Shown here: piece after piece, positions 9,435 through 27,314 of the stretch | How the letters are laid out: each line of letters opens with the position of its first letter | Numbering within the stretch: the first letter of the stretch is position 1 | Origin: a virus | Reading direction: 5' to 3' (one strand) | IMG/VR virus record: IMGVR_UViG_3300030099_003958 | Coordinates: 1 to 27,314 of that record | Length of the DNA: 27,314 nucleotides | Position numbers and translations under genes: made by a program | The notes under the pieces: model-generated | Databases searched by the model: none | Seen by the model: only the letters and a program-made list of their open reading frames with translations | What the model was told of the DNA's origin: nothing

Positions 9435-12400
9435 ATGGCAAAAATTGTTAATACCTTTGTTAAAGGTAAATTAAATAAAGACCTAGACGCTCGTTTGCTA
9501 CCAAATGGAGAATATAGAGATGCTAGAAATATTCAAGTTAGTAAATCAGAAGGGCCAGATGTAGGTGAACTAGAAAATGTATTAGGTAATGAATTATTGT
9601 TTGATTTTGCTACAGATATTCAGCTTACTAATGTATTTAACAAATGTATTGGTTATTTAGCTGATGAATCTAACAGTAATGTATATTTATTTATAACTAG
9701 TTATACTGATCCTGCACCAGACCAAATAAACTACAATAGAATGGCTGAAAACGCTATTGTGAGGTATAACACGCAGGATCCAATTATTGTAGGTAATAAT
9801 CCTAAAAAACTTGTAGAAGGTAATTTTTTAAATTTTTCTACTACAAACCCTATATATGGCGTTAATTTATTAGAAGGTTTATTATATTGGACTGATAATA
9901 GAAATCAACCAAGAGTAATAAATTTAGATAAAGCTGAATCAGAGGGTTTAACTTATTATACTAGTGAAGATCAAATATCTGTTGCTAAATATAATCCTTG
10001 GCAAGCAATACAATTATTTCAAGAAAGCGCTTTATCTCCAGGTGATTATGAAACAACAATGAAAGACGTAACTAGTTTAGTTTTACCTAATGGTGGAACT
10101 TGTTTAGCTGGTAGTAATGGTGGTGCTGGTTGGAATGGTGCTGCTAATTCTGATGTTACTGATGCGCAAGGTATTTATCCGCCTGTTGGTACAAGAATAT
10201 ATTATGAAGATGCAAACGGTGATATTATTGACACAAATGGAAACGTGGCGCTTGGCTCAACACCTCCTAATACAATTACATCTAGTCCATCACCTAATCC
10301 TGCTGGACCTTTACCAGAAGGTACTAAGTTAGTTTTTAATCCTAATCCTTATTATGATAAAAACTTTGCAGGTGATCCATCTTATTTAGAAGATTTATTT
10401 GTTAGATTTAGCTATAGATATAGATATGAAGATAATGAATATTCTTTAATGGCGCCATTTACTCAAATTGCTTTTATTCCTAAGCAAGATGGTTATTTTT
10501 TATATATAAAACAAGACGCACCTAGATTAAGTATAGATGATCAATCTGATGCTTATAGAAGTACTGTCGTACAATTTGTTGAAAACAAGGTAGATGATAT
10601 AAAATTAATATTTAATTTACCATATACAGGTGATACATTAAGAGATTCTTTAAAAATAAAAGAAATGGAAATACTTTTTAAAGAGTCTGATGGAGTAGCA
10701 ATTAAAATTATAGATACAATAACTATTGATGAAATAGAAAATCAAGCTGGTACTACTTCTGTTTTTACATATGATTATTTATCTAAAAAACCTTTTAAAG
10801 TATTAACAACTGCAGAAAGCACTAGGGTTTCTGATCAAATACCTGTTAGAGCTTTTTCTCAAGAAATTAGTGGTAATAGAGTTATTTATGGTAATTTTCA
10901 AAATAAACATACTCCTCCAAAATTTATAGATTACAATGTTGGTGTTAGTGAGAAAGATCCTTTTAATTTATTAACAGGTACAGCAACAGTTGATGGTGAT
11001 CAAAATAATGTTGCACCTGGTGCTACCATATTTTTAAACGCTGGAAGCTGGACACCTTTTATTCTAGGTTCAGATATATTAGTAGGAAGTGAAGTATATA
11101 ATGCTGCTGGAGATTTATTATTTATTGTTGCAGGTTTAGTAAATCCTAATAATGAAATAACAGCTGATAGAACTGTTTCATTAACAAATGGTGAAGTATT
11201 AACTTTTAGACCTGCAGGAGCAGACACTACAACCACTAGTATTATTGAATATCCTAATTCTACATTAAAACAAAATAGAAATTATCAAGTTGGTATAGTT
11301 TTATCTGATAGATTTGGTAGACAATCATCTGTTATATTATCAGAAAATGATACCATAAGTACTATAGGACAGCAATCTTTTATTGGAGACACAGTATATA
11401 ATGCTTATTTAGATCCAAGTGTAGAGCCAGAGCAATGGCCAGGTGACTCATTAAAAGTTTTATTTAATAGCACTATTGGTCCTTCTTCTTTTAATAGAGC
11501 AACATTAGAACCAGGTTTATATAATGGAGATAGTAATAGTAGTTTTTATAATCCATTAGGTTGGTATTCTTACAAAATTGTAGTTAAACAAACAGAGCAA
11601 GAATATTATAATGTATATTTACCTGGTATTATGGCTGCATATCCAGAAGATTTAATATTAGAAGAAAATGCTACATCGCATACAGTATTAATAAATGATA
11701 ATATAAACAAAGTACCTAGAGATTTAACTGAAGTTGGACCTGATCAAAAACAATATAGAAGCTCTGTTCAATTATTTGGTAGAGTAGAAAATACAGCTAA
11801 TGAATTAACTGTTAATGGTTTTGCAGGTTTACCATTTTTTGACGATGTAGGTGAAGCTAATACACAATATTATCCTGAAATCAAAGCAGATACAGTTTCT
11901 ACTATATCTGTAGTACAAGATTTATTTGATTTTAATCCTATAGATCCACCTAGACCAAACTTTTTTCCACAGTTTTATTTATTAGAATCTAATCCTTCTA
12001 TTGCTAGAATTAGTACTCAAAAGAAAATAGGTCAAGTAGCTAATACAAATTATTCAGCTTCACCACCTCCACCTAATATTCCACATATTGGTAGTGGTAG
12101 AGTTGTAACAGGAGCTACTGTACCCGCGGGTGTTTTAATTCCACTTAACAATATAAATGGAGTACTAGAATTAGATCAAGTAGCATCATCTCCAGGTATT
12201 GCTGATGGTATATTTGTTACAAATGTTAATCCAGCAGTTAATCCAACAGAAATAGCATTAAGCGAAGAAGTAACATTGGTAGCTGATCAATTAATACAAT
12301 TAGCACCTGGTTATCCATCTCCAAATCAAGGAGAATTATATTTACCAGGTATACAGTTTTTAAGTGTATATGAAACATCTCCATTTGTATCTAATTTAGA

Positions 12401-13679
12401 TATATATTGGGAAACAACAAGTAGTGGTTTAATAAGTGATTTAAATAGTTTAATAATAAATTCAACTGAAGGAGCTGCAGGAGTAGATGGAGATAATTTT
12501 AGTGGTTGGGACGAAGGATTAGAACAACCTGCTCTTCCTGGTACACCAAGATTTATTAGTAATACTAGTTTTTTCCCAGTAGATGCTTTTGGTGTGGCTA
12601 TAGACCCAGCTGATATTACAGGTATAGAACTATTATCAGTAACTGATCAAGATAATAATTCAAGAACTAATTATTTTGAACTATTTGGTGCGCCTGCAAA
12701 TCCATTTGGATTACCAGCTAATGCTGCGATTCCAGTAGGAAAGTTTAATATTTCTACTACTCAAGATTATTATGATAATATATATTTTACAGAGGCGCCT
12801 GGTAATGATAGACTTTTCAATTTTTATTTAAAAGTTGTTACTAATGTGTCAGGTGTTGCTACTTTAAATTTTGAATTTATTGCCAAAGGACCTCAAAATG
12901 TTGATCCAAGTTTTACTATATCTCCTGCTACAGCTATAGTTAATACTGACAGACAAGATGCTAGTAATTTATTTACATTTACAGGTGACAACGGAGCAGA
13001 TAATAATAATTTAAATTCATTACCACCTCTTGAATGTAGTATAACTAATATTCAAAAAACTTTTAATGGTGTAGTTACACAAATAAATCAACAAGCTGAA
13101 ATTAACGAAACATTTACTATAAGTGATATAAATGTAACTCCTCCAGATTTAGTTACAGCATTAAGTATAGCAGACTCTTCTATTGATCCAGGTAATTACG
13201 TAGCTACAGTTGTTTATCAAGATGCAGGAGGTAGTTTTTCAGATCAAGTAGCTATTAATTTTGATAGAACACCAACTGTTGCACAATTTTTAACAGATAC
13301 ATATACATGTTACGACAATGATGGTGATGGAACATCTGCTGGTACGATAGTTACTTCAACTGTATTATTAATAGAAATAAGTGGTTCACCTATATCAGCT
13401 CAAAATGGTTCATATTTATATAGAGGTAATTTAAATGCAATAGCTAATGGTACTAATAATGTTATAACTATAAACGCAAATCAAGCTGGTGATCCTAGTG
13501 TTTCTTGCTTAGGTCAATTATTTTATAGTTCTACTCAAACTTTAACACAATTAAGAGATTCATATACTTCAAATGATTGTGTAGCTGGTGGTGGTGATTG
13601 TGGGAGTGATAGCGGTTGGTTTGGTCCTTCAGCTGTAGATATAACTGGTTATACAGTAGAAATAATTGGAACACCTTAA
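9435..13679 (+). CDS. Tail nozzle ('muzzle') protein, N-terminal portion, with Ig-like extension
   Basis: A 1414-residue protein. The start (VKGKLNKDLDARLLPNGEY, then RDARNI) is the typical opening of the large tail stabilisation or nozzle proteins of Bacteroidota phages, functionally like T7 gp12, which caps the short tail with beta-propellers. GLLYWTDNRNQPRVINL (about 155-171) and DLFVRFSYRYRYEDNEYSL (about 318-336) continue that pattern. The middle is beta-rich, with many N, D, T and S residues. From about 1150 it looks like immunoglobulin-type domains. Near the end come a DNDGDG loop (1294-1299), which looks like a calcium-binding loop, and several cysteines (C1292, one in VSCLG and the CVAGGGDCG pair). 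The segment normally expected next is in the following, separate gene. It lies on the particle's outer end and could contact the host. Function by family; extension role unknown. Confidence 0.7.
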   Translation: MAKIVNTFVKGKLNKDLDARLLPNGEYRDARNIQVSKSEGPDVGELENVLGNELLFDFATDIQLTNVFNKCIGYLADESNSNVYLFITSYTDPAPDQINYNRMAENAIVRYNTQDPIIVGNNPKKLVEGNFLNFSTTNPIYGVNLLEGLLYWTDNRNQPRVINLDKAESEGLTYYTSEDQISVAKYNPWQAIQLFQESALSPGDYETTMKDVTSLVLPNGGTCLAGSNGGAGWNGAANSDVTDAQGIYPPVGTRIYYEDANGDIIDTNGNVALGSTPPNTITSSPSPNPAGPLPEGTKLVFNPNPYYDKNFAGDPSYLEDLFVRFSYRYRYEDNEYSLMAPFTQIAFIPKQDGYFLYIKQDAPRLSIDDQSDAYRSTVVQFVENKVDDIKLIFNLPYTGDTLRDSLKIKEMEILFKESDGVAIKIIDTITIDEIENQAGTTSVFTYDYLSKKPFKVLTTAESTRVSDQIPVRAFSQEISGNRVIYGNFQNKHTPPKFIDYNVGVSEKDPFNLLTGTATVDGDQNNVAPGATIFLNAGSWTPFILGSDILVGSEVYNAAGDLLFIVAGLVNPNNEITADRTVSLTNGEVLTFRPAGADTTTTSIIEYPNSTLKQNRNYQVGIVLSDRFGRQSSVILSENDTISTIGQQSFIGDTVYNAYLDPSVEPEQWPGDSLKVLFNSTIGPSSFNRATLEPGLYNGDSNSSFYNPLGWYSYKIVVKQTEQEYYNVYLPGIMAAYPEDLILEENATSHTVLINDNINKVPRDLTEVGPDQKQYRSSVQLFGRVENTANELTVNGFAGLPFFDDVGEANTQYYPEIKADTVSTISVVQDLFDFNPIDPPRPNFFPQFYLLESNPSIARISTQKKIGQVANTNYSASPPPPNIPHIGSGRVVTGATVPAGVLIPLNNINGVLELDQVASSPGIADGIFVTNVNPAVNPTEIALSEEVTLVADQLIQLAPGYPSPNQGELYLPGIQFLSVYETSPFVSNLDIYWETTSSGLISDLNSLIINSTEGAAGVDGDNFSGWDEGLEQPALPGTPRFISNTSFFPVDAFGVAIDPADITGIELLSVTDQDNNSRTNYFELFGAPANPFGLPANAAIPVGKFNISTTQDYYDNIYFTEAPGNDRLFNFYLKVVTNVSGVATLNFEFIAKGPQNVDPSFTISPATAIVNTDRQDASNLFTFTGDNGADNNNLNSLPPLECSITNIQKTFNGVVTQINQQAEINETFTISDINVTPPDLVTALSIADSSIDPGNYVATVVYQDAGGSFSDQVAINFDRTPTVAQFLTDTYTCYDNDGDGTSAGTIVTSTVLLIEISGSPISAQNGSYLYRGNLNAIANGTNNVITINANQAGDPSVSCLGQLFYSSTQTLTQLRDSYTSNDCVAGGGDCGSDSGWFGPSAVDITGYTVEIIGTP

Positions 13680-13713: not shown

Positions 13714-15228
13714 ATGGGAGCTACAGTAGAAGTTAAGTATTTCAATTCCTTTGTGTTAAAAAAGAGTATAGGCATTACACCCGATGATAATCCTAGATGG
13801 TATGGTTCATGGGGTATACCCGCTTCTGTTGCTGGTGGTTTTGACCCTGCATTACCTCCTGCTAAGCCTAATAATTGGGCTATAGAAGAATCTAGAATAC
13901 GAGGTGGTTTTAATAATACCTCTGTAGATTTTGGTGCTAAAGCTTATTTAGTAGAAGAAGAACCTGCTGGTTATGTAAGATTTAATGCTTTAATATATTC
14001 TGGTATATTTAATTCTAGAACCGGTATAAATAACACTAATGTTTTTTCTACAGCAGACGATATTACAAAAGCAACAGATCCAGCAAATGGAAGTATACAA
14101 AAACTTTACGCGGAAGACACTAATTTAAACATATTTCAAGAGTTTAAAGTAAGTAGAGCGCTTATTGATAAAGACGCTATATTTACAGCTGAAGGTAATC
14201 CAGCGGTTACCTCTAGTAATTTAGTTATTGGTGTTATTCAACCTTTAGCTGGAAAATATGGTATATCGCAAAATCCAGAAAGTTTTGCTGTATATGGTAC
14301 GAATAAATATTTTACTGATAAGTTCAATAATGTTGTGATGAGCTTGCGAGGTGGTAGTCTAGTAGAAATATCTCAATTAGGAATGAGAGATTTCTTTAGA
14401 GATCAATTAAATGATTTAGATACTGGTAATATTTTAGGTCAATGTATAGGTGGATGGGATATATACAATCAACAATATGTATTATCTTTACAACCATCTA
14501 GTGCAGCTAAGAGTTCTAATAAAACGTTTAGCACTGTAACCTATGATGAAGGAGTACAAGGTTGGACTAGTTTATTTGATTATGAACCAAGTCAAATTAT
14601 TAGTATACGTAATAAAATGTATACTACCGGAATTAAAACTCAAGGTTTTGGTAATGTTCAAGGTTTATTTGAACATTATTCATTAAATGTTCCACGTGGT
14701 CAATTTTATGGAGAAGATTATAATAGTACTGTTACTGTTATATTTAATCCAGAGCCTACAAGATCAAAAACATTTAGTACTATAAACTATGAAGGTGCTA
14801 ATGGCTGGTTTGTTCAATCAGCAATTTCTGATCAAACAGGTTTAAATCAAAACCCTGTAAGTGGTTTATATTCTAATAGTGTAGACACTACAAATAGTAT
14901 TCTTAGTTATTATGAAGGAGAATATGTAATTAATCCTGCAACTAATTTGCCTGTAGTAAGAGCAGATTATAATTTAGTTTTTGGAACAGATGATCCTCCT
15001 TTGTCAAGAAATTATGCAGGTTTTAATAGAAAAGAAAATTCATATGTAGCCAATGTTATAAATACTACTCCGGCTACAGCGGGTGAAATAGTTTTTGGAA
15101 ATGAAATAAGTGGTATAAAAGGTTATTTTATTGAAACAACTTTTTCAACAGATACAACAACAGATCCTGGAGGTACAAAAATATTATTTTCTGTAGGAGC
15201 AAAATTTGATTCAAATAATGGATATTAA
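13714..15228 (+). CDS. Tail nozzle ('muzzle') protein, C-terminal portion
   Basis: A 504-residue beta-rich protein. Its sequence reads like the C-terminal half of a tail nozzle or stabilisation protein: EVKYFNSFVL and ESRIRGGFNN near the start, LIYSGIFNSRTGINNTNVF, then NPESFAVYGTNKYFTDKFNN and ISQLGMRDFFRDQL (about 190-235), and TVTYDEGVQGWTSLFDYEPSQ (about 272-292). In homologues I recall, these follow the upstream gene's segments in one chain. Here two in-frame stops and a 34-base A-rich gap separate them, and the new ATG is in another frame, so this is a true separate gene rather than a single frameshift. It probably assembles with the 1414-residue product into one nozzle. The final 70 residues may be a small terminal domain. 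Confidence 0.68.
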   Translation: MGATVEVKYFNSFVLKKSIGITPDDNPRWYGSWGIPASVAGGFDPALPPAKPNNWAIEESRIRGGFNNTSVDFGAKAYLVEEEPAGYVRFNALIYSGIFNSRTGINNTNVFSTADDITKATDPANGSIQKLYAEDTNLNIFQEFKVSRALIDKDAIFTAEGNPAVTSSNLVIGVIQPLAGKYGISQNPESFAVYGTNKYFTDKFNNVVMSLRGGSLVEISQLGMRDFFRDQLNDLDTGNILGQCIGGWDIYNQQYVLSLQPSSAAKSSNKTFSTVTYDEGVQGWTSLFDYEPSQIISIRNKMYTTGIKTQGFGNVQGLFEHYSLNVPRGQFYGEDYNSTVTVIFNPEPTRSKTFSTINYEGANGWFVQSAISDQTGLNQNPVSGLYSNSVDTTNSILSYYEGEYVINPATNLPVVRADYNLVFGTDDPPLSRNYAGFNRKENSYVANVINTTPATAGEIVFGNEISGIKGYFIETTFSTDTTTDPGGTKILFSVGAKFDSNNGY

Positions 15229-17023: not shown

Positions 17024-20000
17024 ATGACAGACGAAGAATTTTTAATGTCTTTACCACAAGATCTTCTTAGAGATGAAAAAATAAGAAGACTTGAAGAGTA
17101 CAGGCAAGAAAATCCTCAACCTGAAGTTGAAGAAGAAACTGTAGAAGAAGAGACTGTAGAAGAACCAACAGAAGAACCTAATGTTGACTTATTAAATTAT
17201 CAGTTTCAAAGAACTGATCTAGTACCAAGTTTATTTGGTGAACCAGCAGGGACACCACCTCAATCAACTATTCAATATGATAGTGATGGTGCTATAAGCA
17301 TTAATTCTAATAATATATTTAATACTGATTATAGTAATTTAACATTAAGCGACATTAATACAATGATACAGCCTCAACAGCAAAATCAAGAGTATTTAGA
17401 AGCTATTGAAAAATTAAGTGTAATTGCTAAACCTGAAGAAGTTATTAAAGAAAGAGGTTATGAATATAAATATGAAATAACTGATGATGGTAAGTTAATG
17501 TATTATACTAGAAAAGAAGGTTCTGAAGATTTTACACCAATACAAAGCGGTGACAAATACTATGAAGAAATAGGTGGTAGAGTATTTAAGCATTTTGATT
17601 TTCCTGAAGATCAATATAATCAAGCAAATAAAACTTTAAAAGTAGCAAAAAATCTATCTACTAGTATGTATAATCAGCTAGAAAGTTATGCTAATGATAT
17701 TACAGGCGCAACTGAAACTGAAGTTCCTGAAGAATTTATAGAAATAGCTGAGCAGTTTGAAAATGAAGTTGCAATAAATGAAGATGATAGAAGGCAAATA
17801 AATGAAGATGCAATGAGTTTTGTTTTAAATAATTCTAAAATAGACGAAACAAAACAAGGTGTTAATGTATTAGCTAAAGGTGGTAGCTCTGGTGTTTATG
17901 AATATAAAACTGGTAAAAAAATAGATAATCCTCAGTGGACAGAATTAAATGAAGCCGCAATAAGTCAATATGCTAAAGAAAACAAAATACACGCAGATGA
18001 TGTTGATTTAAGCGATCCACAAGTGGAAAAAGAAATTTTTGATATAATGGCTGCTAACAAAGCTATAGAGTTAACAGACAAGCGTCAAAAAAGAAAAATG
18101 ACTGATTTTATTGAAAGTCAACCTAGTGGATTTAGTTGGAATAAATTTGGTACTTGGCTTTATAGCGAACTAGCTATGCCAGGTGATTTACTGGACGCAG
18201 AAGATGTTTGGTCTGTTAATGATGTTCAAAAAAACATGGAGGCTTTGCAAAAATGGAAACAAACAAATGTAAGTCAACAGTCTAAAGATATAGGTAGTTT
18301 TATTAAAAAATCAGAAAACTATTTAATATTATTACAAGATACCGCTGAAAAAATACAAAACGGAAAATATACAACTAGCGCTCAATTAGCAGCAGCAAAT
18401 AAAGAGTTAAAAAATATTAACCAGTTGAGAAATCAAACATTTGATTTAATGCGTACCAAGTACGATGAATTAGCTGTTAATATGGAAAAATCAAAAGATA
18501 TAGCCGCTGATATAAATCTGTTAGAAAGAAACTTTAATATTATACCCTTAATAACTAATAACATAGAAAATTCTACTATAGATGCGTTACAAGGTATAGA
18601 AGAAATAGTTTTTCAAGCTGTTAATTTACCTAATAATTTATCGCCTGATGCTAAACAAGCTTTCCAGTTATTTAATCCAGCTTGGTCTATTATGAATAAT
18701 TTAGGTATTATTGGTAATTGGGGTGATTATAGAAAAGATTATAATAAAAGAATAGACGCGTATCAACAAGGTATGATGAGTGGTATTGCTGAAATGGGAT
18801 CATTAGATGATATTGAAAACATGGATGATTTTGGAAGATACTACGCCTCTATGCTTGGGTCTGTACTTCCTCAAGCAGCTGTAATGATTGGTACAGGAGG
18901 ATATGGATTAGGTGCTGTAGTTTTAAGTTCCGGTGGTAGCAAATGGAAAGAAATGGATGCCGAAATGAAAGCTAGTCAAGATGCTCACAAGCTATGGGAA
19001 CAAAGAAAACCAAAAAAAGGTAAGTTAGAAAGTGAAGAAGATTATAAAAAAAGAGTAGCTGCTTGGAACGACACAGAACCCGCGGTAATAGATTATAATA
19101 TGGTTCAAATGTGGGGTGGAGCTCTTACTAACATGGCTATTGAAGGAACTGCTGGATATTTTATAAGTTTACCTCTTTCTCAAGGAAAATCTTTTATGAA
19201 ACCTTTACTTGATAGAGTTAAAGCTTTTAACTCACCAGCTGTAAAAAATGGATTTACTAAACAATTTACTAATATACTTAAACCTACAGGTGACATACTT
19301 ATTGAAGGTGGAGAAGAAGGTTTAGTTGGTATTGGTAATAATGTTTATGATAGAATTTTTTTAGGTAAAGATGTTAATATATTTGAAGGATTTAAAGATA
19401 ATGTAGCGGGTGGTATTATAGGTGGTAAAATATTTCAAGCACCTGGACTTCTTAAACCTTATTTAAATATGTCGCAAACACCTGGTGATGTTTCTAATAT
19501 TACAGGTTATCAAAATCAAATTAAAAGTATAGCTAATAGCATTACTCAAAACCCTATGATGTCAGCTAATACTAAAAATATATTAAACGATAAAATAGCT
19601 GACTTAACTTTAAACATAAATAATAGTGTTGTAAACTCTTTAAACAGGTATACTCAAATGCCTGTAGAAACAATATCTCAATTAGGTAATATTGAACAGA
19701 GCATGTTTAGAGTGGATCAACAAATTGAGCAAGTTCAAAATGATGAAGGTATACAGGTTGGTAAAGATCAATTATTAGAAGATTTAAATAATCAAAAAAA
19801 TAATCTAACCGGAGAAAAAAATAGAATATTAGAACCTTATGTAGATGTAGATGCTGAAGGTCAAGTAGTTGGTGGTGGTAATTTAATAGCTCCTATATCA
19901 AAGAAAATTGATACTGGTGCTGAGGTAATTGCTGATCAATTAGGTGTAGGAATTGAATCAGTAGATAATACAGCTGATTTTATTGGTAGTGTAGAAACTA

Positions 20001-23000
20001 TAGAGCAATCAGGTGGTCAAGTAATAAATTTAGAAAGAGATGCTAATGGTGATATACTACCTGCAGAAGATCAAGCATACGGCTTTATTACTAGAATACC
20101 TAATGATGATGGTACTTTTGAAACTCAAATTATAATAAACAATGCTTCTAATGAAGCAGATGGTGTAGTAACAACTAAGCAACACGAGGTTTTACATGCT
20201 GCTTTAATGAAAGTTGACCCAGAAGTTAAATCTAAAATGGGTAGAGACCTATTAAATTATTTAGAAAGTAGCAATGTAGAAATGAGTGATAGGCTTAAGT
20301 CAAGGATCGAGCAATACCAAAATGATCCTAATGTTGATGAGTCTACGTTAATGGAAGAAATTATGACATTAACTAGTGAAGGTCTTACTAATGGTGATAT
20401 AACAATAAATCAACCAACTGGTTTACAAAATATTATACAAAAAGTATTGCGAACATTTGGCATTAACAAATCTTTTTCAGAAGGCGAAGGTGTGCTAAAC
20501 TTTATAAAAGACTTTAATGCAGACATATTAAAAGGCGAAGGTTTAACTCAACAAACTCAAGATCAAGTAGATATGGGTCTTGAAACAGAAGTTGATTTAG
20601 GTGTTGTACAAAGTAGAAAACTACCCGAAGCAACTGAGGTTTACATGGATGTAGATAATAATACGCTGCAGCAAGGTTTAAACAATGCAATACAAAACCA
20701 AACAGATCAACAGTTTCCAATAGCTCAAGCAATTGTAGAAAAAAACTGGCCATTAATAAGTAAATCATTAAATATTAATAACGAAGCAGAAATGAACGCT
20801 GCTAAAGAAGTTGTTATTGATCAAGTATTAGGACAGTTTGAAGGATCTGGCCAAGGTAAATATGGTCCTAGAAATACTAGTGCATTATCTGGTTTTTCAT
20901 TAGAAGGTGGAGCACAAGTAAGTACATATTTAGCTGAAACAATAAGAACTAGAAAACCTGAAATAGATGCAGCTATAGTTGATAGAACTGGTGGTCCAGG
21001 TATACAAGCTGATCAAGTAGGTGATGTAGCTGTAGAAACTGAAGTAGCAGAAGTTGCAACAACTAGACGTACACCTAGTCAAACAACTACATATTCCGAT
21101 GCTCTTTTAACTAACGCAAATACAGATAAAGCAGGATTAGAAACTAATATAACAGAAGCTATAACAACAGCTTATGATGGTAGAACTGATGTTACTCTTG
21201 CTGAAACTAGAAATATACCTCAAGAAGTTGCTGAAGTATACGCTACAACTTTTGGATTAAACCCAGAAACCATTGTTGATAAAAGAAGAAATTTTTCTAA
21301 AAAAGATGCTGATGGATTAAATGCTGCTAAAAGATTTTTATTATCTAATGCACAAGCTGATTTTAACAGATTACCAGAAACTGTAGACGCTAGTGGTAAA
21401 GGTACTTTTATTCCTAAAAACGTAAGAGATGCTTTATATACTGACGGTAAACTTACAGGTACATTATCAGATTATCAAGATTTAATTAGAACTCAACCTG
21501 AAAAACCTATTTATAGAGATAGAGTTGGTCAAACAATTAGAGGTTTATTAAATACTCATATTAGAAATAGAATATTAGAAACGGCTAATCCTGATTCTGC
21601 TTCAAGAATAGCAAGTGGTGCTAAATTTAGTGCAAAACCAAAAACAAAAACAAAACCAAAAGAAGCTAAAAAACCAAAAGTAGTTACTGTTAAAGAAATA
21701 CAAAGTCTAGAAAGAAAAGGAGCAGAGTCTTTGCAACCTGAAGTAAAAAAAGGTACAATAGTAATTTCAGAAAAAGAAGGTAGAAAAACTAGTCGTAGTT
21801 ATATACCTAAGTTGGACGAAGTATTTAATAAAGATACAGGTGAAACTGTTGAGCAAGCTAGAAATAGAGTAGCTAATAACTTTTTAGATAGATTTCCTAA
21901 ATGGAAAAATTTACTAGGTAAAAGCATGCAAGGCGGTTTAACAGGTGGTTTATTTTTAACAAAACCCGTTTATAATGACGCTACTAAAAATGTACCTAAA
22001 GCTAGACAAGTAGATGTAAGTCAAGTTGCAATTAATAAGACAGGTTCTAAATTAAATCCTAAAAGTTTAGAAAATATTGGAACTAAAGAGTTTAAAGACG
22101 AACAATTAGAAAATATAGATACTTATGTTGATTATTGGAAAGACGTATCAGAGTATTTACAAGATAATAAAAAAGATTCTTGGTTTTTTGGAGTTCAAGC
22201 TATTGATTCGCAAAGTATAACAGCAGGTCCTTTTAGAAAAGCTGCTATATACGGTTTTTATAATATAAATAATCAAACAGGAAAACCAGATTTTAAAACT
22301 AAAATAAAAGTAGAACATAGTAAACCAAATTCATCAACTACAGATCCTTTCTATGAAGCGTCTCAAAAAGGACCAGAGTATGTAGAAGCTTTAAGACCTA
22401 TTATTAAAGCAAGTTATATGCAAGGAGCAGTAAAAGATGATGGCATTTATTCTGATGACACTAAATTAGATAACGCTGGTTTTAAAAGTGTTATGCCTGA
22501 AGTTTATTATACTGATATAATACCTGCTATTTTAGATGGTAAACTAGATTATTTAATAGATAAATATCCTGGTATAGTTTCTGTAGTAAGAATGGCTGAA
22601 GCTGGTATTAATTTAAATGATTATAAATCTACTTTTGATGGTAAAACAATACCTGAAATATTTGGTGTAGAAGTAGATCCACAGTTTAGAAACGATCCAA
22701 ATGTAATTAAAGCACAAAATACAGCTATAGTTAATACTTTAAAAGTTGATCAAAAAACTGCTAAAACTGATGTAATAAAACCATTTAAAGAATATATAGA
22801 AAATATAGCTGAAAGCAAAACTAACGCAACAGATAAATCACTTGTAGATTCAGGTCCTGAAGTGTTTAATCCTGAAAGAACAGCTGAAGAAATGAAAACT
22901 ACTGCTATAAACTCTCTACAAACTAGAGTTTTAGCTAGCAAGAAAACACCTAAGCCAAAAGGTATAAGTATATTTGATTTTGATGATACTTTAGCTAATA

Positions 23001-25726
23001 CAAAAGAAAAAGTTATAGTTAAAATGCCTGATGGTAAAACAAAAGAAATAAGTGCTTCTGAGTTTGCTAGAGAAGCTGGTAATCTTACTGAAGCTGGCGC
23101 TACTTTTGATTTTAGTAATTTTGAAAACGTAGCTAAAGATACAGCTGAAGGACCACTAGCTGATCTTGCTAGAAAGCGTCAAGGTAAATTTGGTAGCGGT
23201 GATATATTTGTTTTAACAGCTAGACCAAATTCTGCAGGTCCAGCTATACAACAATTTTTAAAAAGCATTGGTATAGATATACCTTTATCAAATATAACTG
23301 GTTTAGCCGATGGATCACCGCAAGCTAAAGTAGATTTTGTATTAAATAAAACAGCTGAAGGATATAATGATTTTTATTTTGCTGATGATTCATTTGCAAA
23401 CGTTAAAGCTGTTAGTGAAATATTAGATGCTATTGATGTAAAAAACACAGTAGAACAAGCTCAAAGTAAAGAAGTTAGATTAAATAATGAGTTTAATAAA
23501 CAAATAGAAGAAGTTACAGGTAAAGAATCATTTAAAAAATATTCTGATACAAGAGCTAGACTAGAAGGAAAGAAAAAAGACGGTGGTTGGATTAAAAGAT
23601 TTGTTAGACAGTTTACTATAACACCATCTGCTGATGATTTTATGGGGCTTTTATATGCTATGGCAGGAAAAGGTGAACAAGGAAATAAGCATTTAAAATT
23701 TTTAAAAGATAATTTAATTGATCCTTATAATAAAGCAGAGCTTGAGTTATTAACTGCTAAGGTAAATGTTGGTAGAGACTTTGCTGCTTTGAGATCTAAG
23801 TTTCCATCACTAAAAGGTAGTACGCTTAGTTTAACTAATCCGTTGTTAAAAGAAATAGATGGTGGACCATTTAACAAAGAACAAGCGGTAAGAGTTTATT
23901 TGTGGAGCAAGCAAGGTATAGAAATACCTGGCATGTCTAAAAGAGATGTAAACGCATTAGTAAAAGCTGTAGAAGCAGATAATGAGTTACAAACTTTTGC
24001 GAACGAACTTGAATCAATGCAGAGAACGCCTCAATATCCACCTCCAGGAAAAAACTGGTTAGGTGGTAGTATTAAGTCAGACATATTAGAAAGCATGGAT
24101 AAATCATTTAGAGCTGATCTTATGTCTGAATTTAATGAAAATGTAGATATTATATTTAGTCCAGAAAATTTAAATAAAATTGAAGCTATATATGGTTCTA
24201 AATATAGACAAGCATTAGAAGATTCTATACGTAGAATGAAGTCTGGAAACAATAGACCTAAAATTACTGGTAGTGGTTCTGGTTTAGTAAATGAAATGTT
24301 AGACTGGTTAAATGCTTCTGTAGCAAACGTAATGTTCTTAAACATGCGATCTGGATTACTACAGACTTTATCTACGGTAAATTTTATAAATTGGGGTGAT
24401 AATAATATAGTAAACGCTAGTAAAGCTTTTGCTAGCAAAGAAATGTGGCCGACGTTTATGAAATTAATGAACTCTGATTATTTAGTTAATAGACGTGATG
24501 GATTAAAAATAAATGTTAATGAAGCAGAACTTGCTGATGCCGCTAAAAAAGGTGGTATAAAAGGTGCTTTTAGTTACATACTAGATAAAGGTTTTGCAAT
24601 AACAAGAGTTATGGATAGTTTTGCTATTGCTCTTGGTGGTTCTACATTTTTTATTAATCGTAAAAAAGCTTTGTTAAATAGAGTAAATGAAAAAACAGGT
24701 AAGTTATATACCGAAGCTGAAGCTGATCAAAAAGCATTTGAAGATTTTTATGAAGTAGCTGAAGAAACACAACAATCAAGTAATCCTAGTAAAATATCAT
24801 CTCAACAAGCCAGTATTGCCGGGCGTTTATTGTTATCGTTTCAAAACGTTACAATGCAGTTTAATAGAAAAACTAAAAAATCTATACAAGATCTGTATAA
24901 TAGACGTAAAAAGCCTGGTATGACACAACGTGAAAGTGATATGAGTAATTTATCTAGTGTTGTTTATTATGTAGGTATGCAAAATTTAATGTTTAACGCA
25001 TTGCAACAAGGAATATTTGCGTTAATGTTTGATGACGAAGAAGAAGAAGAGCAAAATCTAACTAAACAAGAAAGATTTGCTAATGTTTTAAATGGAATGG
25101 CCGACTCATTATTGTTTGGACTTGGTTTCGGTGGCGCAATAGTATCTACAACAAAAAATATACTTATGCGTATAGCTGATGAAACTACTAAAAAGAAACC
25201 AGACTATAGAGATATACCTGATGATGTATTTGATGTTAGCTCTGTTGTTGATGCTAAATTTAGAAAACTTAAATCAGCGGCTAAAACTTTTACTTTTAAT
25301 AGAAAAGAAATAAGAGAAAGAGGTTGGAGTATAGATAACCCAGCTTATTTAGCTATAGCTCAAATAATATCAGCTGGTTTTAATGTTCCAGTTGATAGAG
25401 TATTACAAAAAGTAAATAATTTAAGACAAGCTTCTGACGAATCAGTTAGAACATGGCAAAGAGTAGCTTTAGTAATGGGTTGGAACGGTTGGAACTTTGG
25501 TTTACCATATTGGGGAAGACAAAGTACTATCGATAAAGAAAACAAAAATGCAGAAAAAGTAAAAGAAAATTACGAAAAGCAAGTTAAAGAAATAAAAAGT
25601 AAAGGATTTACTAAAAAAATCCCATTATCAGGACCAAATCATTATAAGCCAAAGGGTAAATTAGGTGTTGATTATGTACAAGTAGAAAGACCCAGCGGCG
25701 AAATTCAATATTATATAAAACCATGA
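17024..25726 (+). CDS. Giant 2900-residue internal virion / polyvalent-like protein
   Basis: One frame encodes 2900 residues, a third of the window. Order of parts: acidic repeat (34-52, VEEETVEE type); helical and coiled-coil region (about 200-560); glycine-rich hydrophobic segments at 608-636 and 693-718 and VAGGIIGG at 794-801; an HExxH metallopeptidase-like domain (H1054, E1055, H1058; candidate third ligand E1111 or E1112); a lysine/proline linker near 1537-1553; an unassigned region; a HAD phosphatase-like domain (D1985, D1987, T2065, K2102, D2121/D2122); and a helical C-terminal region with two more hydrophobic stretches near 2645-2668 and 2691-2714, resembling the LPD38-type domain of large polyvalent proteins. 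I find no cysteine anywhere. Size and position fit the largest ejected podovirus protein. It may open the envelope and deliver enzymes with the DNA. No lysozyme, transglycosylase or RNA-polymerase motif was recognised. It overlaps the next gene by ATGA. Confidence 0.72.
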   Translation: MTDEEFLMSLPQDLLRDEKIRRLEEYRQENPQPEVEEETVEEETVEEPTEEPNVDLLNYQFQRTDLVPSLFGEPAGTPPQSTIQYDSDGAISINSNNIFNTDYSNLTLSDINTMIQPQQQNQEYLEAIEKLSVIAKPEEVIKERGYEYKYEITDDGKLMYYTRKEGSEDFTPIQSGDKYYEEIGGRVFKHFDFPEDQYNQANKTLKVAKNLSTSMYNQLESYANDITGATETEVPEEFIEIAEQFENEVAINEDDRRQINEDAMSFVLNNSKIDETKQGVNVLAKGGSSGVYEYKTGKKIDNPQWTELNEAAISQYAKENKIHADDVDLSDPQVEKEIFDIMAANKAIELTDKRQKRKMTDFIESQPSGFSWNKFGTWLYSELAMPGDLLDAEDVWSVNDVQKNMEALQKWKQTNVSQQSKDIGSFIKKSENYLILLQDTAEKIQNGKYTTSAQLAAANKELKNINQLRNQTFDLMRTKYDELAVNMEKSKDIAADINLLERNFNIIPLITNNIENSTIDALQGIEEIVFQAVNLPNNLSPDAKQAFQLFNPAWSIMNNLGIIGNWGDYRKDYNKRIDAYQQGMMSGIAEMGSLDDIENMDDFGRYYASMLGSVLPQAAVMIGTGGYGLGAVVLSSGGSKWKEMDAEMKASQDAHKLWEQRKPKKGKLESEEDYKKRVAAWNDTEPAVIDYNMVQMWGGALTNMAIEGTAGYFISLPLSQGKSFMKPLLDRVKAFNSPAVKNGFTKQFTNILKPTGDILIEGGEEGLVGIGNNVYDRIFLGKDVNIFEGFKDNVAGGIIGGKIFQAPGLLKPYLNMSQTPGDVSNITGYQNQIKSIANSITQNPMMSANTKNILNDKIADLTLNINNSVVNSLNRYTQMPVETISQLGNIEQSMFRVDQQIEQVQNDEGIQVGKDQLLEDLNNQKNNLTGEKNRILEPYVDVDAEGQVVGGGNLIAPISKKIDTGAEVIADQLGVGIESVDNTADFIGSVETIEQSGGQVINLERDANGDILPAEDQAYGFITRIPNDDGTFETQIIINNASNEADGVVTTKQHEVLHAALMKVDPEVKSKMGRDLLNYLESSNVEMSDRLKSRIEQYQNDPNVDESTLMEEIMTLTSEGLTNGDITINQPTGLQNIIQKVLRTFGINKSFSEGEGVLNFIKDFNADILKGEGLTQQTQDQVDMGLETEVDLGVVQSRKLPEATEVYMDVDNNTLQQGLNNAIQNQTDQQFPIAQAIVEKNWPLISKSLNINNEAEMNAAKEVVIDQVLGQFEGSGQGKYGPRNTSALSGFSLEGGAQVSTYLAETIRTRKPEIDAAIVDRTGGPGIQADQVGDVAVETEVAEVATTRRTPSQTTTYSDALLTNANTDKAGLETNITEAITTAYDGRTDVTLAETRNIPQEVAEVYATTFGLNPETIVDKRRNFSKKDADGLNAAKRFLLSNAQADFNRLPETVDASGKGTFIPKNVRDALYTDGKLTGTLSDYQDLIRTQPEKPIYRDRVGQTIRGLLNTHIRNRILETANPDSASRIASGAKFSAKPKTKTKPKEAKKPKVVTVKEIQSLERKGAESLQPEVKKGTIVISEKEGRKTSRSYIPKLDEVFNKDTGETVEQARNRVANNFLDRFPKWKNLLGKSMQGGLTGGLFLTKPVYNDATKNVPKARQVDVSQVAINKTGSKLNPKSLENIGTKEFKDEQLENIDTYVDYWKDVSEYLQDNKKDSWFFGVQAIDSQSITAGPFRKAAIYGFYNINNQTGKPDFKTKIKVEHSKPNSSTTDPFYEASQKGPEYVEALRPIIKASYMQGAVKDDGIYSDDTKLDNAGFKSVMPEVYYTDIIPAILDGKLDYLIDKYPGIVSVVRMAEAGINLNDYKSTFDGKTIPEIFGVEVDPQFRNDPNVIKAQNTAIVNTLKVDQKTAKTDVIKPFKEYIENIAESKTNATDKSLVDSGPEVFNPERTAEEMKTTAINSLQTRVLASKKTPKPKGISIFDFDDTLANTKEKVIVKMPDGKTKEISASEFAREAGNLTEAGATFDFSNFENVAKDTAEGPLADLARKRQGKFGSGDIFVLTARPNSAGPAIQQFLKSIGIDIPLSNITGLADGSPQAKVDFVLNKTAEGYNDFYFADDSFANVKAVSEILDAIDVKNTVEQAQSKEVRLNNEFNKQIEEVTGKESFKKYSDTRARLEGKKKDGGWIKRFVRQFTITPSADDFMGLLYAMAGKGEQGNKHLKFLKDNLIDPYNKAELELLTAKVNVGRDFAALRSKFPSLKGSTLSLTNPLLKEIDGGPFNKEQAVRVYLWSKQGIEIPGMSKRDVNALVKAVEADNELQTFANELESMQRTPQYPPPGKNWLGGSIKSDILESMDKSFRADLMSEFNENVDIIFSPENLNKIEAIYGSKYRQALEDSIRRMKSGNNRPKITGSGSGLVNEMLDWLNASVANVMFLNMRSGLLQTLSTVNFINWGDNNIVNASKAFASKEMWPTFMKLMNSDYLVNRRDGLKINVNEAELADAAKKGGIKGAFSYILDKGFAITRVMDSFAIALGGSTFFINRKKALLNRVNEKTGKLYTEAEADQKAFEDFYEVAEETQQSSNPSKISSQQASIAGRLLLSFQNVTMQFNRKTKKSIQDLYNRRKKPGMTQRESDMSNLSSVVYYVGMQNLMFNALQQGIFALMFDDEEEEEQNLTKQERFANVLNGMADSLLFGLGFGGAIVSTTKNILMRIADETTKKKPDYRDIPDDVFDVSSVVDAKFRKLKSAAKTFTFNRKEIRERGWSIDNPAYLAIAQIISAGFNVPVDRVLQKVNNLRQASDESVRTWQRVALVMGWNGWNFGLPYWGRQSTIDKENKNAEKVKENYEKQVKEIKSKGFTKKIPLSGPNHYKPKGKLGVDYVQVERPSGEIQYYIKP
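17123..17179 (+). repeat. Acidic tandem repeat near the start of the giant gene
   Basis: A roughly 15-base unit (GAAGAAACTGTAGAA type) is repeated about three times imperfectly, encoding VEEETVEEETVEEPTEEP. Short in-frame repeats of this kind change copy number easily. The product is a negatively charged, probably disordered tether after a short helical N-terminus. Confidence 0.6.
19976..20398 (+). other. HExxH metallopeptidase-like domain within the giant protein
   Basis: Residues about 985-1125. The core is KQHEVLHAALMKVDPEVK: H1054 and H1058 would bind zinc and E1055 would be the catalytic base. Before it comes a strand-like IIINN, as expected ahead of an active-site helix. A downstream helix with LMEEIMTLTSEG offers E1111 or E1112 as third ligand, a gluzincin-like arrangement. 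Related HExxH domains occur in phage polyvalent proteins. Possible roles are self-processing, scaffold cleavage or cutting a host protein after ejection. Confidence 0.55.
22955..23473 (+). other. HAD-superfamily phosphatase-like domain within the giant protein
   Basis: Residues about 1978-2150. All four HAD motifs are present: I, FDFDDTLA (nucleophile D1985, acid D1987); II, VLTARP (T2065); III, K2102 in PQAKVDF; IV, FADDS (D2121, D2122). The roughly 75 residues between motifs I and II include a short strand pair (KVIVKMPDGKTKEIS), a small cap. Stand-alone phage HAD proteins with this cap style exist, acting for example on phosphorylated nucleotides or RNA ends. The substrate here is unknown. 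Confidence 0.75.
24326..25243 (+). other. Helical LPD38-like region of the giant protein
   Basis: Residues about 2435-2740. Patterns such as NFINWGDNNIVNASKAF, NRRDGLKINVNE, FEDFYEVAEETQQSSNPSKIS and GRLLLSFQNVTMQF recall the C-terminal region of very large proteins in marine phages, matching my memory of the LPD38-type polyvalent-protein domain. Two hydrophobic helices (near 2645-2668 and 2691-2714) are separated by an FDDEEEEEQN acidic stretch, so this part could insert into a membrane. The domain name is tentative. Confidence 0.4.
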
Positions 25727-25950
25727 AACAATTAATTATAATTTTATTAGCTTTTACACTAACGACTAACGCGCAAGAAGTTAAAATTAAAAAATGTGTA
25801 GAAGTAAAAGTAGAAAAATTAGACGCTTATAGAGTAAAAGTAACAAAAACAAATAACTGTGTAGAACCTAAAGAAGTTACTGTACAAGCTTATTTACGAC
25901 ATGAGTGGAACAAAAAACAAAAGCAACGTAAAAAAAGAAAAAATGACTAA
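25723..25950 (+). CDS. Small exported basic protein with signal peptide
   Basis: A 75-residue protein with a clear signal peptide: MKQ, then a hydrophobic core (LIIILLAFTLTT) and NAQ before a likely cut at about residue 18. The mature part, about 57 residues, has two cysteines (in KKCVEV and NNCVEP) that could form a disulfide in the periplasm, short strands (EVKIKK, AYRVKVTKT, EVTVQAYL) and a very basic end (KKQKQRKKRKND). There is no lipobox cysteine, so it is not a lipoprotein. It overlaps the giant gene by ATGA and the next gene by TAATG, so translation is tightly coupled. It may act in the host envelope in lysis or exclusion; a unimolecular spanin is unlikely because there is no C-terminal membrane span. 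Confidence 0.65.
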   Translation: MKQLIIILLAFTLTTNAQEVKIKKCVEVKVEKLDAYRVKVTKTNNCVEPKEVTVQAYLRHEWNKKQKQRKKRKND

Positions 25951-27131
25951 TGAAACAAATTTTAACTGTCCTTTTTGCCCTGTGTGTATTTGTAAGTAAT
26001 GCACAAGATAAGAAAAACTTATTTAAAAGTATATACGAAGATATATTTAAATACAGTAGTATTTATGTAGCAGGTGATGTACAAAATCCAAAAGAAAATC
26101 CTAAAGATTATTTTGTAAGAACTAATCCTAGCGGAAATATATATGAACCACCAGTTGTAGTCGATGGTACTGATTATTATGACTTTGATTATCGCTACGG
26201 TTTTGGTATACGTAAGCTTGCTAGGTTTGATTATGAAGTTAAAGGCAAACAATATTACGATGGGACTGAATCTAACGTAGGTCTCGCGGCTTCTAATTCA
26301 CCGATTAAAGGTTTAGAATACGTAGTACATATTGAAAAAGAAAGATCCAGAGATGAAGTATTTAAAAATCATCGATATTTCTTAAAACACAGCGGAAAAT
26401 ACCACATTGCTAAGGTGGAAAGCAGAAAACAAGGTAAAATTAATTTTAACTATAAATCTGCAGAGCTAAGAGCTAAATTACCTATTGGTAAAAAGTTCTC
26501 TTTAAATGCTGGTGCAATATATCGTACACATGAAAGACCTTATGGATATAATCCTATAGAGATATGGTTAAACGAAACAGATGATAATGGTTGGCCAGTT
26601 AATTATTGGTATCAGTTAGGTTACAATTATGGTTTTACTGATCAATATGTTACTATAAATATTGACGGTGAAGATGTATATGATTATTACTGGTATGATC
26701 CACAAGGAAACGTAGTCGCTTATACTGATTTACAGTTTCGCGACACGGTGTTTGAAAACCTTATTAATCGCTACAATAATGAAGTGTGGGGTAATTTAGA
26801 TGAGTTTGGTGTAGTTTCACCTGTTGTCGGTTTTGACTTTTACCATTACAAAAATAACTTCTGGCTTCATGCTTATGGATCTTATTTATTACCATATCAC
26901 AAGTATGTTAGAGGTGACGAAGACTTTAGTTATTTAAATAGAAATAATTGGGGTCTCGGTGGACTAAGACATGATTCTGAGTTAGAACAATGGGACGATT
27001 ATCAAGCAGGCGTAGTGTTTGGCTGGAAACTAAACAAAGCATTAGGAGTTTTTGTTGAAGGCGAATATACAAAATTTTGGGATAGTAAAATTTATAACGG
27101 TTCAGTTGGTCTGAACATAACACTAAGATAA
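25950..27131 (+). CDS. Outer-membrane beta-barrel-like protein with signal peptide
   Basis: A 393-residue protein starting with a signal peptide (MKQ, LTVLFALCVFV, SNAQ; cut near residue 19). The rest alternates polar and hydrophobic or aromatic residues as membrane beta-strands do: KINFNYKSAELRAKLPIG, FSLNAGAIYRTH, VVSPVVGFDFYHY, NFWLHAYGSYLL, YQAGVVFGWKLN, LGVFVEGEYTKFW. The last strand, GSVGLNITLR, reaches the terminus as in many barrel proteins, though it ends in arginine rather than phenylalanine. Aromatic-rich loops (near 225-260) could face outside. A virion protein would not normally need a signal peptide, so it most likely goes to the host outer membrane during infection. Masking or altering the receptor, blocking superinfection or aiding lysis are possible; none is shown. 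Overlaps the previous gene by one base. Confidence 0.7.
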   Translation: MKQILTVLFALCVFVSNAQDKKNLFKSIYEDIFKYSSIYVAGDVQNPKENPKDYFVRTNPSGNIYEPPVVVDGTDYYDFDYRYGFGIRKLARFDYEVKGKQYYDGTESNVGLAASNSPIKGLEYVVHIEKERSRDEVFKNHRYFLKHSGKYHIAKVESRKQGKINFNYKSAELRAKLPIGKKFSLNAGAIYRTHERPYGYNPIEIWLNETDDNGWPVNYWYQLGYNYGFTDQYVTINIDGEDVYDYYWYDPQGNVVAYTDLQFRDTVFENLINRYNNEVWGNLDEFGVVSPVVGFDFYHYKNNFWLHAYGSYLLPYHKYVRGDEDFSYLNRNNWGLGGLRHDSELEQWDDYQAGVVFGWKLNKALGVFVEGEYTKFWDSKIYNGSVGLNITLR

Positions 27132-27132
27132 A

Positions 27133-27314
27133 ATGGCAAAGAAAATAGGTGAAGAAACACAAGTAACTCTTGATCTTAAAACAATAGGCATGATCATTGG
27201 CTTTGTATTAATGTTAGCAGGTATGTGGTTTACACTGCAAGCAGATATAGCTCAAGCTAAAGAACTACCTGTACCAGTTATCGATAGAGTAGAATATGAT
27301 TTAAAAGACGAGTT
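27133..27314 (+). CDS. Single-span membrane protein, N-terminal part (3' end outside window)
   Basis: Starts at the ATG one base after the barrel gene's stop and stays open to the window end, giving 60 full codons. A short charged cytoplasmic-type N-terminus (MAKKIGEETQVTLDLK) precedes one hydrophobic helix (about residues 17-36, TIGMIIGFVLMLAGMWFTLQ). A charged stretch with LPVPVIDRVEYDLKDE follows. One span near the N-terminus followed by a soluble part would suit an inner-membrane spanin or a small holin-like protein, and similar starts occur in marine phages as unnamed proteins. Its place after two exported proteins supports an envelope function. The missing end prevents a firmer call. 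Confidence 0.6.
   Translation, partial: MAKKIGEETQVTLDLKTIGMIIGFVLMLAGMWFTLQADIAQAKELPVPVIDRVEYDLKDE

Follow-up and report, generated by a model that had tools for sequence, protein, structure and literature searches.

The described systems closest to the locus reported here are spanins, such as lambda Rz/Rz1 and T1 gp11, and the exported barrels of phages and prophages, such as phage porins and the Lom/OmpX/Ail barrels. The phage porins and the Lom/OmpX/Ail barrels are single genes with bacterial homologues. To our knowledge, the passage through the outer membrane by phages of marine Flavobacteriia-type hosts is poorly described, and spanins are rarely recognised in these phages. According to a 2025 survey, the only spanins used by Bacteroidetes phages are unimolecular ones (PMC12596118).

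The DNA analysed here is a stretch of 27,314 nucleotides from a virus (IMG/VR record IMGVR_UViG_3300030099_003958, positions 1 to 27,314), hereafter the window. It carries a gene for a predicted outer-membrane beta-barrel, which in its relatives is accompanied by genes for a small membrane protein (TMCC) and a thioredoxin-like protein (TrxL). This module is similar to lambda Rz/Rz1 and T1 gp11 in that it adjoins an endolysin gene and sometimes a holin gene. TMCC is similar to Rz in having a single membrane helix near its N-terminus, probably followed by a coiled coil in the periplasm, and the module would span from the inner to the outer membrane as spanins do, if the inferred topology holds. 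In contrast to spanins, it would place a 12-strand barrel instead of a lipoprotein in the outer membrane; it has a third, thioredoxin-like part, and no sequence relation was found. The small lipobox lipoprotein or proline-rich o-spanin of the Rz/Rz1 type is missing, and in the sequences read, no module protein combines an N-terminal lipobox with a C-terminal membrane helix as T1 gp11 does. By the membership criteria applied to the sequences, the module is not a spanin. As with the phage and prophage porins and the Lom/OmpX/Ail barrels, its predicted outer-membrane barrel is exported and encoded by a phage; in contrast to them, the barrel belongs to a family that matches no porin or OmpX model in Pfam, is predicted to have ~12 strands and always occurs with the same partners.

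Gene row and phage type of the window

The barrel ORF is the third gene in a tight row of the giant gene, the 75-aa ORF, the barrel gene and the TMCC gene (Table 1). The start of the 75-aa ORF overlaps the stop of the giant gene, the ATG of the barrel gene shares one base with the stop of the 75-aa ORF (TAA, ending at 25950), and the next ATG after the barrel is at 27133. The dN/dS of the mature barrel is 0.08-0.12 in seven pairs, with relatives at 82-88% nucleotide identity. The barrel ORF is real and under purifying selection. The family of the 75-aa protein satisfies the signal rule described below in 24 of 27 members. The giant protein has no Pfam or PHROG match; two of its stretches, FDFDDTLANT and HEVLHAAL, nevertheless resemble, by eye, a HAD-type and a metallopeptidase motif.

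Table 1. Features of the window.
Feature	Position	Strand	Remarks
Match to crAss muzzle, N-terminal part	9435-13679		1414 aa; PF25731, E 2.3e-12
Match to crAss muzzle, C-terminal part	13714-15228		504 aa; PF25729, E 1.5e-10
Giant gene	17024-25726	+	2900 aa; directly upstream; end of structural arm; context, outside the module
Small secreted basic protein	25723-25950	+	75 aa; in the row with the barrel gene; some window-type loci lack it
Outer-membrane beta-barrel gene (predicted)	25950-27131	+	393 aa; signal peptide ~aa 1-19 (25950-26006); mature protein 26007-27128
TMCC gene, start	27133-27312	+	first 60 of ~94 aa; cut by the window end

The terminase of the window matches phrog_6681 and the portal matches phrog_6547. 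The terminase, the portal and the major virion protein match those of Flavobacterium, Cellulophaga and Maribacter phages, and the virion gene after the portal also matches phi38:1 (Pervagoviridae). The search with the portal returned 87 phage records, all but one of which are named for Flavobacterium, Cellulophaga, Tenacibaculum or Maribacter. A crAss-type muzzle is apparently split over two genes of the window. The packaging and structural genes thus match, at the sequence level, those of a Pervagoviridae-type flavophage with a crAss-type muzzle.

Given these matches of packaging, structural and muzzle genes, the gene order is not T7-like. The preliminary description had assumed a T7-like order, in which a tail fibre gene is expected after the gene for the largest internal protein, and this assumption is ruled out by the flavophage matches of the terminase, portal and virion genes and by the crAss muzzle tail genes. 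In MW202828, Panino, elemo 6-9C, phi38:1 and phi18:3, to whose giant genes that of the window was likened by position alone, the giant gene is the last in the structural arm. It is followed there by opposite-strand genes, RNA genes or the end of the record, and no fibre gene is due after it. The barrel as a tail fibre is itself ruled out by the fold and the gene content, by the signal peptide and by the window barrel matching no PHROG family up to E = 1, and the earlier argument that a signal peptide speaks against a fibre is supported. The barrel profile found no member in MW202828, Panino, elemo 6-9C and phi38:1 (0 of 4, in a search run without a positive control).

Export signal and predicted fold of the barrel

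The first residues of the window barrel look like a signal peptide with NAQ at its end. Under a homemade rule, a hydrophobic stretch must be followed by [ASG]Q; among the barrels that have a start codon, 196 of 211 conform, versus 45 of 1658 other ORFs of at least 100 aa and none of 164 M15 enzymes. An earlier, stricter rule is satisfied by just 85 of 211 barrels versus 177 of 1806 others. These signal and feature counts (211 barrels and up to 212 in other rows) leave out sequences that lack a start as their first residue. Conservation is lower in the first 19 residues of the barrel (0.56) than in the mature part (0.74). There is no conserved lipobox in the barrel family; the signal mostly ends in xAQ or xSQ, and the length is ~390 aa.

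AlphaFold with 21 close sequences gave a poor model (pLDDT 55). With a deeper alignment of 55 diverse sequences, whose mutual identity goes down to ~52%, the mature barrel was modelled at pLDDT 76.3 and pTM 0.67, with ~12 long strands and an N-terminal helix. Matches of this model in the Foldseek PDB search were mostly outer-membrane barrels, and the top Z-scores were also for such barrels: Tsx (14.1), EstA (13.9), KdgM (13.8) and NalP (13.4). Together with NanC, these proteins have the same outer-membrane fold as the model (Z 13.1-14.1) at just 8-12% identity to the phage barrel, and the shared fold shows no function. A viral protein in BFVD, A0A516LKJ4, matches over the whole length (E 9.4e-26, TM 0.61/0.66, 23% identity) and is, going by the models, probably a distant member of the barrel family.

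The strands have one conserved, polar face (conservation 0.87, polar fraction 0.54) and one more variable, apolar face (0.71 and 0.27). Compared with shuffling within strands, the alternation is reached by 37 of 5000 shuffles for conservation, 44 of 5000 for the Kyte-Doolittle scale and 50 of 5000 for polarity; on a Wimley-White-type scale it is not above chance (647 of 5000). The C-terminus is L, R or K, where an aromatic residue ending the last strand is the usual criterion. Outer-membrane barrels with variant, non-aromatic C-terminal ends exist. On this model, the gene product is almost certainly an outer-membrane barrel. The barrel prediction and the structural search thus came out as the preliminary description had proposed, and its view that the phage makes an exported barrel destined for the outer membrane of its host is supported by the signal rule and the ~12-strand model.

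At least 541 relatives of the barrel were found in IMG/VR, and 264 barrel loci were analysed, of which 215 are unique, the window included. The tblastn search of 50,697 phage records with five barrel variants found nothing credible, one E = 1 match in a Bacillus phage being discounted, and tblastn with TMCC and TrxL gave no matches in the phage records. The 55 barrel members showed weak matches to phrog_13874, which has no function, in 12 cases (best E 0.0069); in Pfam, they matched nothing credible, and porin and OmpX models were absent from the matches up to E = 1. The sequence search of solved structures with the barrel found nothing meaningful. Two short peptide patterns, which are blind to distant host relatives, were searched in 84,980 genomes and matched two contigs from one MAG; both contigs look phage-type. 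The barrel may derive from a host gene, as the preliminary description suggested, but this pattern scan gave no host-type match. The MAG is a 600-kb assembly whose title is Candidatus Woesearchaeota isolate RS366 (G001; matching loci L177, L178 and L447-L451); it contains five barrel places, and its barrel contigs are probably misbinned marine phage contigs.

Linkage of the barrel with TMCC, TrxL and wall enzymes

TMCC is ~95 aa long. Its membrane helix starts near residue 17, and ~60 residues follow it; the helix is single in 210 of 216 TMCC sequences. The charged, regular segment after the helix is a probable coiled coil. TrxL is usually 107-136 aa long and satisfies the signal rule in 199 of 206 sequences. 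It matches Pfam Thioredoxin (E 4.5e-07 for L067), and no CxxC was found beyond the signal region in any of 209 TrxL sequences. It is considered to be a secreted, thioredoxin-like protein without the redox-active CxxC site.

The window ends inside the TMCC gene, and TrxL and the endolysin would fall beyond that point. The locus L068, 98.5% identical in nucleotide sequence to the window end over 1062 bases, has a complete 94-aa TMCC gene and then TrxL after the barrel. There is no M15 match in the examined stretch of L068, which ends before any endolysin; the M15 enzyme is present in the relatives L002 and L003. Small, very basic ORFs (48-149 aa) run after TrxL in window-type loci, at 1.6-3.1 kb in L068, and in L003 the run precedes the endolysin.

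Linkage was counted in the 118 unique loci that extend at least 3 kb to either side of the barrel; 97 of the 215, which are shorter than this on one or both sides, were excluded. Profiles, built from these same loci, detected both TMCC and TrxL on the barrel strand within 3 kb in 118 of 118. Clustering alone found TrxL in 115 and TMCC in 112, and several of its misses relative to the profiles are places where the gene picker kept a long opposite-strand ORF. The commonest family other than TMCC, TrxL and M15 is present in 58 of the 118 loci. Starting from TrxL, the barrel was found in 86 of 93 loci, and in the remaining seven the contig stops on the barrel side; many of the 93 are contigs already in the barrel set, and the test is therefore independent in method, not in sample. 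In G001, TMCC and TrxL accompany the barrel at four of the five places (L448-L451), three of which (L449-L451) are outside the profile-building set; neither was seen in L447, which is cut ~900 bases past the barrel. We are highly confident that the three genes are a constant set in the kind of loci sampled. This linkage of the barrel to two constant envelope-protein genes is the new observation here.

A peptidoglycan-cutting enzyme lies within 3 kb of the barrel in 115 of the 118 loci (M15 in 107, amidase in 8), and a 3-TM holin is present in 42. The endolysin gene directly follows the barrel in 47 of the 215 unique loci and overlaps it in 39. Since the loci are centred on the cassette, proximity to the endolysin is common for any gene in them: 408 of 567 genes of at least 150 aa in the same loci are also within 3 kb of it. 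The 80 portal loci contain no barrel; they are portal-centred and mostly too short to reach it, and so provide no control. The most frequent gene orders are BAR-TMCC-TRX-M15 (53 of 118) and TMCC-TRX-BAR-M15-HOL (27 of 118). In L204, L230, L235, L240, L253 and others, the TMCC-TrxL pair is observed twice, flanking the barrel on both sides. The divergence of the barrel correlates with that of TMCC at r = 0.41, of TrxL at 0.47 and of M15 at 0.47, versus 0.78 between TMCC and TrxL. The barrel tracks TMCC and TrxL no better than M15, and sequence co-evolution therefore adds no support.

The module is observed together with different head genes: the terminase phrog_6681 (the window and L231), the portal phrog_33693 (L038) and the terminase phrog_2 (L229). 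L452 is of the HK97 type, with the portal phrog_12, terminase phrog_38, protease phrog_80 and major head protein phrog_10, and its TMCC-TRX-BAR-M15-HOL row comes after the tail terminator gene. The barrels of L450 and L452 are 32% identical to the window barrel, and their TMCC is 55% identical to that of L030. In L231 the module is between groEL and the terminase gene; the annotated wall enzyme of Panino, the elemo phage and MW202828 is likewise upstream of the terminase.

Candidate roles of the module

With constant envelope-gene partners and a wall enzyme as neighbour, the barrel is probably a part for lysis, not a tail fibre. More specifically, we see an even chance that it belongs, as the component in the outer membrane, to a lysis module of three proteins, which would resemble spanins in its role and not in its sequence. 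Among the three roles offered in the preliminary description (blocking or replacing the receptor, preventing superinfection and weakening the wall for lysis), the last fits the neighbourhood best, and it is carried forward at this strength. The phage would express the module late. TMCC would sit in the inner membrane with its N-terminus inside and its C-terminus outside, reaching into the periplasm, where TrxL may act as an adaptor or chaperone, and the barrel would provide the outer-membrane anchor. After cleavage of the peptidoglycan by the endolysin, the three proteins may join and breach or fuse the outer membrane, taking over the step done elsewhere by spanins. Alternatively, the neighbourhood could reflect late co-expression only. 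The wider proposal, in which a redox-dead thioredoxin, TMCC and a phage barrel constitute an undescribed trans-envelope lysis machine for Bacteroidota-type envelopes, opening the outer membrane with a barrel as its anchor where spanins have a lipoprotein, and in which the genes have spread by exchange between unrelated marine phages, is offered tentatively as a whole, with the balance somewhat against it. In the open-licence PMC literature (titles and abstract openings), no description of such a module was recognised.

Proteins of 181-207 aa are encoded in the wall-enzyme/terminase region, near terL, of MW202828 (L162, 13227-13850), Panino (L163, 15850-16452) and elemo (L164, 15970-16515). By eye, they have an N-terminal membrane segment, a Thr/Asp-rich linker and C-terminal strand-like stretches. 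They have no Pfam match and at most weak PHROG matches. From this layout, they may be one-protein envelope spanners with the same job as the module; they differ from it in being single proteins, and they have no sequence relation to it.

The main rival of the lysis role is superinfection exclusion or receptor masking, in which a late barrel hides, replaces or occupies the host receptor, so that progeny are not wasted on debris, while TMCC and TrxL act against incoming DNA at the inner membrane and in the periplasm. Phage-encoded porins are a precedent for this. The predicted placement of the barrel in the host outer membrane and its large outer loops, modelled from 55 sequences at 34, 91 and 36 residues, speak for such a role. 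The conservation of these loops, however, is 0.69-0.77 versus 0.71 at lipid-facing strand positions, a shortfall of at most 0.02, and there is no receptor-like diversification. The carriers have unrelated head genes, including those of the HK97-type phage, and need not have a receptor in common, and the linkage is to wall enzymes, not to fibre genes. We regard exclusion as rather unlikely. A channel that raises outer-membrane permeability late, by nutrient inflow or osmotic weakening, with TrxL as an assembly helper, would suit the presence of the specific channels Tsx, KdgM and NanC among the best Z-scores. The presumed lumen lining contains the near-invariant charged residues R88, E123, R142, K155, E157, R174, R192, D296, D350, K360 and E370, which read more like a closed salt-bridge network, and a channel alone leaves the constant TMCC partner unexplained, making this role quite improbable.

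An outer-membrane enzyme of the phospholipase A kind, attacking outer-membrane lipids at lysis, would agree with the lysis neighbourhood and with the match to the 12-stranded OMPLA (1fw3; Z 11.4, 3.9 A over 167 residues). This match is no better than those of many unrelated barrels, and H147-S148, considered in view of the Ser-His-Asn catalytic residues of OMPLA, is H-T in many members and Y-V in L450, so that these two residues are no fixed catalytic pair; an enzyme is thus very doubtful. A tail or ejection protein that enters the virion despite its signal peptide is suggested by the position of the barrel directly after the giant gene in window-type loci. In other lineages the barrel is away from the giant gene, beside the wall enzyme and holin, and the signal peptide, the barrel fold and the lack of a PHROG tail family also speak against a virion component, which we consider extremely improbable.

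A three-gene set that stays constant across hundreds of uncultured phages, from several head-gene lineages, is a concrete candidate for lysis. If exclusion were true, phages would be altering the surface of their hosts widely by means of the barrel. Either reading links three gene families without a named function.
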